From Proales similis (taxonomy: Eukaryota > Rotifera > Eurotatoria > Ploima > Proalidae), in the NCBI GenBank assembly GCA_019059635.1, contig JAGVRJ010000001.1, forward strand, positions 2,728,001 to 2,792,000: a DNA stretch of 64,000 nt, given 5' to 3'. Every line of letters begins with the position of its first letter. Within the stretch, counting starts at the first letter, position 1. The notes beneath the pieces are model-generated. The model was not told the DNA's origin and made no database searches. It saw only the letters and a list, made by a program, of their open reading frames with translations. A program made the position numbers and the translations under genes. Below, piece after piece: positions 34,009 to 63,704 of this stretch.

Positions 34009-35007
34009 TCAAAGGTTTGGTATGAAACTAAACGTTCGATTCGCGAGCATCGGAAGTTCTCTTAGTCTCGGTTGAAAGAAATCACGGAGCGACTGCCGTG
34101 CCGAATCGCTGAATTGAAGGGGGTGCTCTCTTCCTTTTCCAGGACTCATGCATTTCCCATGGATGCCATCCTTCGTGAAGCAGAAGAACCCTTTCTGGTC
34201 AGAAAAAGTGAAATTGCGCCGATCGATTTCGATCGGGATTTTCAGGAAGCGCTGGAGGAGGATCATTTCTTCCCACGGCTCAGTTTTGAACCTGTCTCCG
34301 TCCGCTACGAAAACCTGATGAGGAGGAAAGTATTTGTACACGTTCTTAAGGTGTTCTTCCAAGTTGACATAGCTAAATAATACACCACGGTTATTTTGAA
34401 CGATTTCTTCAATTCTTGCTGAACCAGTTTCAATATCGTAAAAGATCTTTTCAAAATTAGCCTTTTCGGAAGCTCGAAATATTAGAGAATTGGCAATACG
34501 TGACTCGATCATGTCAATCGGATTACACATAATAATAACAATTCGCATATTCGGATTGAATTCGTAGATTCGCTTCAGGGATTTGTCATAGATGTACTCG
34601 GGACGTTTCGCAAACACAACAATGTTTGGATTTTGAATGTAAAATTGAAGATCAATGTCTGGCATCTGCTGATTGTACCATTCTTTTGAAGGCATTGGGT
34701 CTAATTCAAAATAGGGTATTTCCCCTTCTTTTGTTTCAAAAGAAAGCCGATGACGCGACAAGAACTTTCTGAGCGTCCCTGTGCCACACTTGCCCATTCC
34801 TGCAATCAACATATTGGGCATAAATTTGACCGTTTTTGCTTTTGTGTTATCTGCCGAAGCATATTTGCTTGTATTCGATTCGATTAAACGACTGCTTGAT
34901 GATTCTCGAGTGCAAGAACTGTCCATTTCAGTAAGAGTCTGCCAGAAGATCAGGCCCGATAGACAGACTAGGTTCACAAAAAGCAAAAGACCAAATTTCT
35001 TCTGCAT
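34009..35007 (-). CDS. Golgi-type heparan-sulfate-like sulfotransferase, copy 1
   Basis: An intronless 332-residue type II membrane protein: short cytoplasmic N-terminus, one signal-anchor helix (FGLLLFVNLVCLSGLIFW), a Ser-rich stem, then a sulfotransferase domain. The 5'-phosphosulfate loop is AGMGKCGTGTL (residues about 70-80), the acidic active-site segment EGEIPYFE, and the later block VFVADGDRF..EPWEEM and FSDQKGFFCF..GIHGKC..GKGREHP, which matches the C-terminal disulfide loop of 3-O-sulfotransferases (HS3ST). It should transfer sulfate from PAPS to a glycan in the Golgi. The 3'-phosphate loop reads MCNPIDMIESRI instead of the family's RDPxxRxxSxY, so two arginines are replaced. It forms a head-to-tail pair with copy 2. 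Confidence 0.85.
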   Translation of the reverse strand: MQKKFGLLLFVNLVCLSGLIFWQTLTEMDSSCTRESSSSRLIESNTSKYASADNTKAKTVKFMPNMLIAGMGKCGTGTLRKFLSRHRLSFETKEGEIPYFELDPMPSKEWYNQQMPDIDLQFYIQNPNIVVFAKRPEYIYDKSLKRIYEFNPNMRIVIIMCNPIDMIESRIANSLIFRASEKANFEKIFYDIETGSARIEEIVQNNRGVLFSYVNLEEHLKNVYKYFPPHQVFVADGDRFKTEPWEEMILLQRFLKIPIEIDRRNFTFSDQKGFFCFTKDGIHGKCMSPGKGREHPLQFSDSARQSLRDFFQPRLRELPMLANRTFSFIPNL

Positions 35008-35585
35008 AATAGATGCTCAATCTTATTTTGCGATTTTTGTACTATAGTAGAATGAATGTTTCTAAGGTAAATCTTAGCTTGTGATTTTATTAGTGCTTTT
35101 CAAGCCCAGTGAAGCATTTCATAAGCTAAAAAAATGTAGCAAGATCGGTCGTTTTTCACAAGTGGAAGGAGCAAGTCTCTGCAAATTATGTTTATGCTTA
35201 TTAAGTTAATTGAAGCAAACTACGAAACCGGCTTAGAGAGGCTCTATTTGAAGTAATAATCAGAAATACAAGCTGTAACTCCATAAAAAACATTAACCCT
35301 TTCTTAGAAATTTTCAACAATTAAATTAAAGAGTTTCAGTCCGAAATTTTGGCCGATTCAATTTATACATTTAAAAATTCGAACTGTTGAGACAACTCGA
35401 AGCCAGCGTCAATACGAAAACCAAGAAATGTTTTTTAATCTTTGTTTATTGCTTTCCATTGATTGATTTATATAGTTAAGTATTCTGAAGGAGAGAAAAA
35501 TTTGACGACAAAACTACGCTAAGAAGGGGTTAGGCCCAATCCGTAAAACATTTTGGGTATCTAGGTTGGACCGCTGAAAAGATAA
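35008..35585. other. Spacer between sulfotransferase copies 1 and 2
   Basis: 578 bases: the first 30 bases upstream of the copy 1 start are almost identical to those upstream of copy 2, then similarity fades but remains visible around the shared motif aagtctctgcaaat (35178 and 36748). The right end carries the 3' flank of copy 2. No gene seen. Confidence 0.6.
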
Positions 35586-36584
35586 TCAAAGGTTTGGTAT
35601 GAAACTAAACGTTCGATTCGCAAGCATCGGAAGTTCTCTTAGTCTCGGTTGAAAGAAATCACGGAGCGACTGCCGTGCCGAATCGCTGAATTGAAGGGGG
35701 TGTTCTCTTCCTTTATTACCCGGCATACATTTCTCATTTATTCCATCCCTTGTGAAGCAGAAGAACCCTTTCTGGTCAGAAAAAGTGAAATTGCGCCGAT
35801 CGATTTCGATCGGGATTTTCAGGAAGCGCTGGAGGAGGATCATTTCTTCCCACGGCTCAGTTTTGAACCTGTCTCCGTCCGCTACGAAAACCTGATGAGG
35901 AGGAAAGTATTTGTACACGTTCTTCAAGTGCATCACAAACTCGGTCAACAAAAACATTTTACCACCTTTCCCATTTGCAAGATCTTCATGGCTCAACGAG
36001 CCGTTTTCGATGTCACTATAAAATTTCTCAAGACGATCAATTTGATCTGGATCTCTGCTCAGAAATTGTGATGCTCGCGAGTCTAACAAGGTGATAGGAT
36101 TACACACAATAATAACAATTCGCATATTTGGATTGAATTCGTAGATTCGCTTCAGCGCATAACTCCTGATGTAATTCGGACGTTTCGCAAACACAACAAT
36201 ATTTGGATTTTGAATGTAAAATTGAAGATCAATGTCTGGCATCTGCTGATTGTACCATTCTTTTGAAGGCATTTGCCTCATTTCAAAATAAGCAACTTCG
36301 TCCTCCTTAGTTCTAAAAGCGAGTCGGTGATTGCTTAAGAACTCCATCAAAGTCATTGTGCCACACTTGGCCATTCCTGCAATCAACATATTGGGCATAA
36401 ATTTGACCGTTTTTGCTTTTGTGTTATCTGCCGAAGCATATTTGCTTGTATTCGATTCGATTAAACGACTGCTTGATGATTCTCGAGTGCAAGAACTGTC
36501 CATTTCAGTAAGAGTCTGCCAGAAGATCAGGCCCGATAGACAGACTAGGTTGACAAAAAGCAAAAAACCAAATTTCTTCTGCAT
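35586..36584 (-). CDS. Golgi-type heparan-sulfate-like sulfotransferase, copy 2
   Basis: Same build as copy 1: intronless, 332 residues, signal anchor, stem and HS3ST-like domain. The first 70 residues and several internal blocks (PSKEWYNQQMPDIDLQFYIQ; HLKNVYKYFPPHQVFVADGD; the last 30 residues) are identical to copy 1. Between them lie sharply bounded patches that differ strongly: the phosphosulfate loop is AGMAKCGTMTL, the active-site segment EDEVAYFE, the region after the 3'-phosphate loop (VCNPITLLDSRASQFL..GKGGKMF) resembles the plus-strand copy at 37842, and the disulfide loop reads GINEKCMPGNKG. The patches fall in loops that would contact donor and acceptor. Presumably active; substrate unknown. 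Confidence 0.85.
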   Translation of the reverse strand: MQKKFGFLLFVNLVCLSGLIFWQTLTEMDSSCTRESSSSRLIESNTSKYASADNTKAKTVKFMPNMLIAGMAKCGTMTLMEFLSNHRLAFRTKEDEVAYFEMRQMPSKEWYNQQMPDIDLQFYIQNPNIVVFAKRPNYIRSYALKRIYEFNPNMRIVIIVCNPITLLDSRASQFLSRDPDQIDRLEKFYSDIENGSLSHEDLANGKGGKMFLLTEFVMHLKNVYKYFPPHQVFVADGDRFKTEPWEEMILLQRFLKIPIEIDRRNFTFSDQKGFFCFTRDGINEKCMPGNKGREHPLQFSDSARQSLRDFFQPRLRELPMLANRTFSFIPNL

Positions 36585-36910
36585 AATAGATGCTCAATCT
36601 TATTTTGCGATTTTCGTTTATTTGTTATGAGGTTTATTTTAAAGTAATAGTAACTTCAAGTTCTTACTTCGTTCCAAACTCATTGAGCCATTTACTCAGC
36701 TTAAAACATTGAGCGAGATTGGTAGCTTTTCAACCGAGGAAGAACAAGTCTCTGCAAATAATTTTTTTGCATATTAAGTAAATTGGCGCAAATTTCCCAT
36801 CGGAGCATAAAAAAAGAATACAGATAAGCCAAGTCGTCCATTGAACATGAAGACTACCTGAAAAACAAAGGCCGTATTTAAACATTCTTTGATCATGAGG
36901 TCATGGTAAA

Positions 36911-60675: not shown

Positions 60676-63600
60676 CTAGAACAACACCGGAAGCTTGCTT
60701 GTCTTCTTGATCACGTATTCGGTGAAGCGCTTAACAAAGCGCGGATATTCTCGTTTGTATACTGTCCTCAGTACGTTGGCCGGTATCCAGCCACCAGGGT
60801 TTACTGTCAAACAAAAGCGATTAGTTCATGAATCGGAATGTAGAATTGGCTCGGATCTTAAAAGAATGAGAAAACAATTCTTTTGAAATCGAAAAGCGTT
60901 AGCAAGGCCACATGTTTGTTTTGGTTTTGATTTTAAATTTGATTCTTTCAGAGGAGAAGCGGCTGCGAGAGAAATTTGCAAATAGATTTTGCTTACTAAA
61001 TGCTACATAGGTTAGCTTGCAAGTAAGTTTGCTCCGATCGAGCGATGAACTAACAGTCGAAGGATTAGACGAGTTGTTGACCAGAGTTTGGCAAATCATG
61101 GCTACGTTGAGCGAGACTCTCACTCTGTCAGCCGTCTAAAAAACTCTACTTGGTTAGTTTTGTGTGAGTTGGAGTGCGGCGGACAAGTGTGAGTGTGGCG
61201 ATGCTTTGAAAAAGCAAATCAAGACGAAGATGAAGCAACAAGAAGCGAGTGAAAGGAGTTTGGTTGTCAAACAGTGAAAGGAGTTAAAGGAGTTTGATTG
61301 CTCTAGAACTCTTAGTAGATCTATAGCCAACTTAGGCTTACTAAAGCTAACAAATTCAGAGTCTAGTCAAGACAGCTATTTTGCGATTCGACAAACTTGT
61401 GGCCCAGTCAACACTTTTGAGCATATTTTTCGCTCTTTTTCGCATCATTTAAATTACCAAACGCCACATAAGTTATGTTACAAATCAGATTCTGGCGCGG
61501 CACCGACTTGAGGTCGGCAAGTTTTTGTCTGTCTTTGACCCTTGTCTGGCAGATCATAGCCACATTTGCCCAAGCTCTTACCACCGGCTCTTTTGGCTTT
61601 AGAATGGTTTCATGTTCATTATTAGATTCTAATCGTCAGATTGCAGAGGAAAGACTGCTGGAGTGGAAATCAGATTGAAGTGAAGAGACAAGGAAGCGTG
61701 TGAATGCTGAATGAGTGATAAAGATTGAATTTACCGGCGCTGCCTCGTGATTAGTGGAATGGTTCACCACAATCCAGAGCGGGAACTCGCTTGTCTCGTC
61801 GCTCGCCTCACGAATGTGCGACCAGAAACAAGTGTCTCGTTGAGCTGACGGCCAAACGCGTTTATGCACTTGATGGAACACGAGCGTGTTGTCAGACAGG
61901 GCTTCAATCATTCTAGAGCTGTCCAATGTGCCCTCCCACTCCATTCTGACTGCGGGATCCCAGAAATACTTGCAAATCTCATGTCCCGTAACTCCCTTGA
62001 AAAAAGCGTTTCATGTTCATGCCTCGTCCAAAATAGGCCAACTATTCAACTCGAACTCTACCTTGACCGTGTGAACTGCCTTGAGCGGGTCGAGCACAAT
62101 GCCGTCCTCTTCCAGCTCTCGGCGGTAGATTTTCATCTCTCCGTCTTGACAGAGCAGCTCCCACACGTTTGAATTGAGATCATCTTGAAGGTCGTATTTG
62201 AGATGCTCTTGCACGATTCGTTCAATCTCCTCGCTAAGTCGATGCTGAGGTACAGACTTCATTTCAGACAATTGTGTCAGGCTCTCCAGGGCTTTCACTC
62301 GCTACAAATAGTCAAAATGAGATAAGCTAGACGCCGAGCAGAGGACATAACTCATATTTCTTCTCACCCGTTCCTCTTCTTGTTCAAGCGTGTCGAGCGT
62401 GCTGTCGATTGCGTCGAAAAATTGCTCTTCTCTTAGATTGCTATGCGGGCCCTCTTCAAAATCGGGCCCAGCAATAATTATCTGCGTTTTCTTGCTCTTC
62501 ATCAGCTCTTTGACTTGGTCTTCGGCTTTTTTCCTCTTTTCGATCTCCTGCATTTAATAGAGAAAAACAAAAAGGCGACAAATTGACTGAATTAATTTTG
62601 TGTGCGCGTGCATGCGTTTCGCAAGGCCTCCAACCTTATTCAGCTTTTTCTTGAGAAACTCCTCGCGTTGGGCCATCAGCTCGATGCAGTGTGATAGGTT
62701 GTGTAAAATGCCGGCTGTTGTCGCTTTAAAGGTGACCGCCTCTCCTTTGAAATCGAGTCTCATTGCAGCGTGGTCTTCAAGGCAAGCGCGATTGAAATCG
62801 CGCGAGAGCTTATCAACGGCACTTGACCCATTCTCTTGGTCGACCTTGTGCCCATTTCGCGACGACGACGACTTGGCCACATCGTTAGCGATCGTAGCGT
62901 CGCCGTCGTCAACGTCGTCTACATCGCTACTTTGCTCATACTCTTTGTGATATGGTTCAAAGCCTTTTGTTGTTGCATTTGCGCAAGCATCAAAATAGGT
63001 TTGAAGTGTTTCTACTTGACGACACAATATTTCCTTGAACGTTTCCATTTCGTTCAGCTTTTCTCTTAAACCGTGTCCACGCTTGGTCGAGCCGGTCGAA
63101 GTGACACTCAGACTTGCCGTCGAGTTAATGGACAGCATTGAGCCGTGTCTTTTTAAACTGCTCTGACTTCCATATCCAGACTCGCCCTTGATTGCAAGGA
63201 AATAATTTCAAATCAAATGTAACAGTTCTTTGATGCCCACCGACCCTGTGTTCATCGATGGCCTCAAGCCAGCGTTGCCGGTCTTGGACACTTTTCGCTC
63301 TCAAATACCAGACACAATCGTTAACTCTGACGTCGAAGCGACAATCGTCCAAGTCGTGCGGCTAATTAAGTTTCAAAACGAGTTAATCTACGCTTTACAT
63401 GAGGTGGTAGCCAATTAAAGTTGCTTACGATTATTTTGGACTGCTTGAGTGCGATTGCGCCTCGACAGCCGAAATGTGTCTCTTCCTCGCTCTTGTAGTA
63501 GCTGAGCACTCCGTCTTTCAGCACAATGTACCTCTCCTGCCAGCCGTGTATGTAGTTGGTCCACTTGAACAGTTGACTTGAGATCGAACTCGCGGCTTGA

Positions 63601-63704
63601 TTGGCCTTTTTGCCCCCGTTCAGTTGTGTTGAATCATCCTCGTTGCCGCTCAACTGGACCTCTTCCTCGTCAGAGATATTTATGCTCGCCGTTTCCGTAT
63701 TCAT
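60676..63704 (-). CDS. CERT1: Ceramide transfer protein (CERT, START domain) with two alternative START exons
   Basis: Starts at 63704 with an acidic N-terminus and a PH domain ([37 protein letters not shown]) that binds PI4P at the Golgi. A serine-repeat region ([18 protein letters not shown]) leads to a coiled-coil segment ([18 protein letters not shown]) and a FFAT motif (EEQFFDAID) for ER VAP proteins. The START domain begins [20 protein letters not shown]. Residues that contact ceramide in human CERT (E446, Q467, N504) are conserved in [17 protein letters not shown] and VVNHS; Y482 is Phe. The exon ending HEAAP can join either of two 139-base exons, and both join the last exon (60803-60676) reading VNPGGW or INPGGW and ending [14 protein letters not shown] carries ceramide from ER to Golgi. 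Architecture is complete. Confidence 0.95.
60997..61135 (-). other. CERT1: CERT START-domain alternative exon A (distal)
   Basis: 139 bases, preceded by TTTTTTAG and followed by GTAAGC, phase 0 in and phase 1 out. It encodes 46 residues beginning [19 protein letters not shown] and ending [10 protein letters not shown]. Joined to the last exon it gives YVAFINPGGW. It is the exon closer to human CERT ([11 protein letters not shown]). Confidence 0.85.
61458..61596 (-). other. CERT1: CERT START-domain alternative exon B (proximal)
   Basis: 139 bases between AAAG and GT borders, phase 0 in and phase 1 out. It encodes 46 residues beginning [18 protein letters not shown] and ending [10 protein letters not shown]. 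Joined to the last exon it gives YVAFVNPGGW. It contains the tyrosine equivalent to Y553 of human CERT. Confidence 0.8.

Follow-up and report, generated by a model that had tools for sequence, protein, structure and literature searches.

Can one gene for CERT, the protein that carries ceramide for sphingomyelin synthesis, encode two carriers that differ within the ligand pocket itself? The question is raised by two neighbouring exons in the rotifer Proales similis, which a preliminary description of the locus had taken to be mutually exclusive exons arisen by exon duplication. Exon assembly along an open frame places a complete CERT gene on the minus strand, running from 63704 to 60676 of the window (the whole 64,000-nucleotide stretch of DNA that was analysed). 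In order of transcription its features are:

63429..63704, minus: coding exon 1, start codon and start of the PH domain (open frame and PH match to human CERT)
63245..63361, minus: coding exon 2, end of the PH domain (open frame and human CERT match)
62635..63186, minus: coding exon 3, serine-rich motif and middle region (open frame, alignment)
62368..62547, minus: coding exon 4, with EQFFDAIDS, which we take to be an FFAT-like motif (open frame)
62062..62301, minus: coding exon 5, start of the START domain (open frame and human CERT match)
61735..61995, minus: coding exon 6, constant and preceding the switch, ending in phase 0 after ...HEAAP; holds the E446, Q467 and N504 equivalents and the W473 gate (human CERT alignment)
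61597..61734, minus: intron 5' of exon A, 138 nt
61458..61596, minus: alternative exon A, 139 nt, 46 aa, RAWANV type, with V as the junction residue
61136..61457, minus: intron between exons A and B, 322 nt
60997..61135, minus: alternative exon B, 139 nt, 46 aa, RVSLNV type, with I as the junction residue
60804..60996, minus: intron 3' of exon B, 193 nt
60676..60803, minus: last coding exon, NPGGW gate loop, C-terminal helix and stop codon

When the predicted protein was compared with PDB chains using phmmer, both its START domain (E 1.1e-82) and its PH domain (E 1.8e-40) matched CERT entries. Three protein searches for CERT relatives gave 1,915, 516 and 246 matches, the best 120 of which were listed in each case, from a database clustered at 90% identity, in which isoforms of one species may be merged. 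Most CERT homologues among the best 120 of 1,915 have both PF00169 and PF01852, and CERT is the name given to many of them; the best named match in that set is from Brachionus calyciflorus, at 68% identity. Alignment to human CERT shows that the Proales protein has the head-group residues E446, Q467, N504 and Y553 and the gate residues W473 and W562. By its PH and CERT-type START domains and these key residues the gene product is thus identified as CERT (STARD11), and ceramide transfer is predicted.

The gene is the only one for CERT found in the P. similis genome (32,716,893 bases in 15 contigs, with scores given for the best candidates only). Nine of the 12 genome matches to the CERT query are exons of this gene, and the remaining three are confined to the PH-domain part of the query. 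A second CERT gene was considered as the origin of exon B, and none was found in the genome.

Each of the two alternative exons is preceded by AG and followed by GT, enters in phase 0 and leaves in phase 1, and encodes 46 open residues. Spliced between 61995-61735 and 60803-60676, either exon taken alone preserves the frame and gives a protein of 630 aa ending ...PVLF. If both are taken in series the frame breaks and ends after residue 590, a short way into B, and if neither is spliced in a stop follows residue 542, at the junction. One coordinate in the preliminary description was wrong: the upstream exon ends at 61735 and not at 61745, so that the relevant junctions are 61735/61596 and 61735/61135. 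Once this is amended, the rest of its account of the exon pair is correct as regards sequence.

The broken frame of the double product also admits a different reading, in which the pair acts mainly as a control of CERT level, with joint inclusion being frequent, regulated and decay-prone and the single-exon forms being functionally equal. Both exon lengths are 1 mod 3, and the stop reached within B lies upstream of the last junction. In the excerpted text of the human exon atlas, moreover, 60% of mutually exclusive clusters hold exons not divisible by three, and exon-joining reads are reported for some clusters (PMC5740500). The joint-inclusion product was not seen in 21 proteins inspected, though decay would hide it.

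The two exons are clearly related. Their peptides share 20/42 identities (E 4e-9, BLASTP, single comparison), and either exon, joined to the flanks common to both, matches human CERT with 103.5 bits. When the exons are aligned codon by codon with gaps allowed, 27 of 41 codons agree at position 1, 27 at position 2 and 11 at position 3; the same residue is encoded in 20 of the 41 aligned codons, and just 7 of those 20 use the same codon. This pattern points to two coding exons that have both been under selection since an old duplication, rather than to a recent copy or a chance frame, and on this basis exons A and B are judged to be old copies, both kept under purifying selection. In a scan of the window (1,007 stop-to-stop ORFs, giving 159 same-strand pairs less than 2 kb apart with a blastp E of 10 or better) the A/B pair ranked by bit score just below a tandem duplicated gene at 34.0-36.6 kb and one mitochondrial-carrier ORF pair. 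The former consists of two minus-strand frames of 335 aa (34012-35016 and 35589-36593), 80% identical and matching the sulfotransferase family PF00685, and is a tandem gene duplicate. The latter consists of two adjoining minus-strand frames with the mitochondrial carrier domain PF00153 (16764-17710), which are probably exons of one carrier gene. A 20-nt match in the intron between A and B was considered as a third exon copy and was judged by eye to be due to chance.

Among the matches listed, the CERT proteins of the closest relatives split into two types over exactly the A/B stretch. Types were assigned by hand from alignments and then examined by tree, and P0010, P0012, P0125, P0180, P0184, P0190, P0192 and P0233 were left out of the counts. 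The A type is found in nine relatives (P0003, P0005 from Brachionus calyciflorus, P0006, P0007, P0008, P0013, P0014, P0027 and P0124), in which the stretch mostly starts RAWANV and mostly ends YVAQ followed by V at the junction. The B type comprises exon B of the window and three relatives (P0004, P0171 and P0194), the start being shorter in these three; it is marked by VAMIC or VALIC with ET or QT, and by DRN or DRS before the last strand. The 21 proteins inspected for copies of the exon core include the more distant outgroups P0015-P0018; none of them has two copies, 19 have one, and two (P0009 and P0011) have none.

Three comparisons suggest that the two types are alternatives within otherwise matching proteins. 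P0004 is a full-length, contiguous B-type protein of 615 aa, the constant part of which is 85% identical to that of P0006 and 84% identical to that of P0007, both of A type; in the exon its identity to either falls to 41%, whereas the exons of P0006 and P0007 are 78% identical to one another. The B-type fragment P0171 (104 aa) matches A-type P0006 (620 aa) at 18/18 positions before the exon and 41/41 after it, where the other eight proteins in the comparison reach at most 14/18 and 40/41. Similarly, B-type P0194 (134 aa) matches A-type P0014 (482 aa) at 29/31 positions before and 41/41 after, and the other eight proteins reach at most 16/31 and 38/41. P0171/P0006 and P0194/P0014 therefore look like isoforms of one species each, as judged from the flanking residues, although the two mismatches in the latter pair leave room for close sister species. 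The source of P0171 and P0194 is jgi assemblies, and either might be an assembly join, although a join would then need to coincide exactly with the exon borders. The frames of the relatives run unbroken across the exon borders seen in Proales, so that the contigs must represent either spliced RNA or intronless copies, and spliced RNA is far more likely. Related rotifers thus appear to make both exon versions.

Could the A- and B-type proteins of the relatives instead come from separate paralogous genes, unrelated to the pair in the window? The many Rotaria and Adineta entries do suggest that some rotifers have several CERT genes. In Proales, however, the genome search turned up one CERT gene, which has the two exons in tandem, and the identical flanks of P0171 and P0006, which differ only between the exon borders, would on a two-gene origin require gene conversion of all but this exon. 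Separate paralogues are accordingly regarded as a very improbable source of the two types, and a choice of exons within one gene is preferred.

Some sequences end at or near the exon. The ORFs of P0009, P0011 and P0041, which are without the exon, run into other sequence at or before it, and P0011 and P0041 look like retained introns when judged from their protein letters. In P0011 the tail VNIEINLFY directly follows ...AP; back-read from the protein, it would correspond to an intron starting GTAAAT, the same donor start as in Proales. Four proteins from another rotifer-like lineage (P0180, P0184, P0190 and P0192) end ...VSHVNPG and continue into unrelated tails, as if, a few residues past the exon border of Proales, the frame read on into an intron. 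P0010 and P0012 form a separate rotifer-like CERT pair with constant parts 70% identical to each other; the exon of P0010 resembles the A type by its start, and that of P0012 resembles the B type.

Phylogenetic analysis of the exon (46 columns, 29 rows; 13 of the 26 inner branches open) recovered a B clade of window B, P0004, P0171 and P0194 (96/88). A starred group (95/81) takes in window A among its 12 rows, which are the ten A-type rows together with P0125 and P0180. In the tree of the constant part, which does not include P0090, P0004 groups with the A-type proteins P0006 and P0007 (99/95). Conflict of this kind between the two trees is what a within-gene exon duplication older than these species predicts. 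When sister relationships were forced on the exon tree, P0171 with P0006 was rejected (p-AU 0.001), P0194 with P0014 was weakly rejected (p 0.042), and window A with window B was borderline (p 0.051). The presence of one type per protein, the B clade and the matching flanks together indicate that the pair predates the sampled species, and both forms are very probably expressed.

In the exon tree, window B sits on a long branch of 1.25 changes per column. This might be taken to mean that one exon, in Proales B, is decaying or barely used and that the other alone makes a working CERT. Yet B is open, its AG and GT borders are intact and its acceptor is T-rich; with its flanks it scores as well as A against human CERT, and its codon pattern is one of purifying selection. 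B-type exons also occur in contiguous monogonont-like proteins, one of them the full-length P0004. Decay of exon B is hence considered most improbable, and the evidence favours a pair in which both exons are in use.

What would the exchange of one exon for the other mean for the protein? By alignment, the A/B exon corresponds to human CERT residues 514-556. In the excerpted text of a study of CERT, R442, E446, Q467, Y482, N504 and Y553 hold the ceramide head group, and R478, V480, A521, I523, V557 and P559 are the residues whose contacts with ceramide are lost when the lipid enters; W473 and W562 are borne on the gate loops, the omega-2 loop makes membrane contact through R517, and the pocket, by its size and shape, sets a limit on ceramide length (PMC11228987). 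In agreement with the preliminary description, the equivalents of E446, Q467 and N504 lie in constant exons and Y553 is present in both A and B. W473 and W562 lie in constant exons as well.

The differences fall instead on the pocket wall. Proales A has Ala521, Ala523 and Val557, and Proales B has Val521, Leu523 and Ile557, so that the residue is larger in B than in A at all three positions. Of the ten A-type rows, nine have Ala at residue 523 and P0013 has Val; all four B-type rows have Leu, Met, Val or Ile there. As Val occurs in both P0013 (A) and P0171 (B), residue 523 is not perfectly diagnostic of type. Residue 557 is Val throughout the A type (nine of nine relatives and the window), and in the B type is Ile in the window and in two of three relatives, with Val in P0171. 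Residue 521 differs in Proales only, being Ala in the other three B types. The loop of the hairpin formed by the two strands is not of constant length either, with P0194 deviating most.

Residue 523 was also compared in 108 other proteins of at least 480 aa among the matches listed (P0010 and P0012 left out; two without the exon). It is Ala in all 20 bdelloid-like rows and M, I, L or F in all 86 remaining rows. From this distribution, B keeps the usual animal state and A has a small residue, as bdelloids do. Given Ala523 in 20/20 bdelloid-like CERTs of this length among the matches listed, bdelloids may have kept an A-like exon only.

The A/B differences at the ceramide-contact position, at the exon start and in the loop recur across species, which suggests a functional difference between the two forms and argues against a pair whose single-exon products are equal and whose main role is to set the level of CERT by joint inclusion. 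The latter is judged unlikely. For a switch between two working carriers, the candidate lipid-determining positions can be narrowed to the membrane-facing loop and two contact residues, 523 and 557, joined in Proales by 521; changes there could alter the choice of ceramide chain length or ceramide release.

The gene also holds indications of how the choice might be made. The five other CERT introns are 58-87 nt long, and the three around the pair, at 138, 322 and 193 nt, leave room for regulation. The acceptor of exon B is T-rich and its donor reads GTAAGC, whereas exon A has a poorer acceptor and a GTAATT donor. Its stronger splice signals make B look like the default and A the regulated exon, although most of the full-length proteins of relatives that were listed are of the A type, a poor fit to B as default.

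No specific exclusion device stands out. The three introns around the pair contain no U12-type donor or branch motif, and an Rfam search at gathering thresholds gave no match. In the excerpted account of OGDH, exons 4a and 4b are also mutually exclusive and retune a metabolic protein, and their exclusion depends on distant branch points, which lie close to the donor of the intron that separates the two exons (PMC7969005). In Proales, by contrast, a branch-like CTAAC lies 19 nt from the acceptor and ∼ 300 nt from donor A. The 322-nt intron has 11 YTNAY sites in all; those 19 and 30 nt from the acceptor would give no hindrance, and one lies ∼ 49 nt from donor A. Steric hindrance is therefore not supported by the acceptor-side branch-like sites, and a distant branch point is possible.

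In a crude duplex test (five region pairs, 60 approximate dinucleotide shuffles each), pairing of the middle intron with exon B and the following intron gave -102.3 against a shuffle mean of -83.9 (sd 6.5; reached by a fraction of 0.02 of the shuffles), and the other four region pairs, with fractions of 0.47, 0.23, 0.85 and 0.72, did not stand out. Of four weak pairs within 1.2 kb, one is a 24-nt inverted repeat linking the middle intron with the end of exon B (61344-61367 with 60995-61018). What is left as a safeguard is the incompatibility in frame, as for many of the human cases in the excerpted atlas text (PMC5740500).

Taken together, the claim of mutually exclusive exons arisen by exon duplication is supported: contiguous proteins of relatives carry either type, two protein pairs have identical or near-identical flanks, and the trees conflict. 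With the equal length and phases, two complete frames, separate conservation and the frame break, this leads us to regard A and B, with a probability of roughly nine in ten, as a true mutually exclusive pair in the only CERT gene found, the product of a duplication older than the sampled monogonont sources.

In the mechanism envisaged, each mRNA would take one exon by regulated competition. Because an mRNA with both would reach its stop as B begins, far ahead of the last junction, nonsense-mediated decay should eliminate it; skipping both would cost the end of the START domain. The switch would exchange a segment that begins at the omega-2 loop and takes in the last two strands preceding the gate loop, leaving the head-group residue Y553 and the W473/W562 gate constant and swapping wall residues 523 and 557. 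The outcome would be two CERTs with the same addresses (PH, FFAT) and a different pocket size and membrane-facing loop, perhaps suited to different ceramide chain lengths or transfer rates.

The arrangement resembles known ones in form. Human mutually exclusive pairs from tandem exon duplication are likewise neighbouring, similar, and equal in length and phase, and their joint inclusion breaks the frame; the Proales case differs from the pairs in the excerpted atlas in concerning a rotifer START-domain lipid transfer protein with the swapped piece in the ligand pocket, and the name COL4A3BP is absent from the atlas main text as excerpted (PMC5740500). Within the same family, human CERT1/COL4A3BP also yields two proteins by splicing, GPBP with and CERT without a 26-residue serine-rich exon, but according to the excerpted source this is a 78-bp cassette exon taken in or out, unlike the A/B swap (PMC11642137). 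Five Pecten CERT isoform entries (X2 to X6) are identical to each other over the A/B stretch. The human 78-bp cassette exon lies outside the START domain. Among open-licence papers, judged by titles and the starts of abstracts, no earlier description of an exon switch in CERT was found, in line with the preliminary description, and we know of no earlier case of a START lipid transfer protein whose cargo pocket is exchanged by alternative splicing. What is new, then, is the occurrence of mutually exclusive exons, a known kind of splicing, in a new protein family, monogonont CERT.

The repertoire of mutually exclusive exons consists mostly of ion channels, receptors and muscle proteins, and a lipid transfer protein is now added to it. 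At somewhat less than even odds, and so tentatively, the pair may be an ancient monogonont splice switch in the CERT pocket, by which one gene would give two carriers that differ in their pocket walls, that would prefer or release ceramides differently and that may serve in different tissues or life stages. A natural pair of pockets in an otherwise identical protein, found across several monogonont lineages, would offer a ready-made test of which wall residues set cargo and release.
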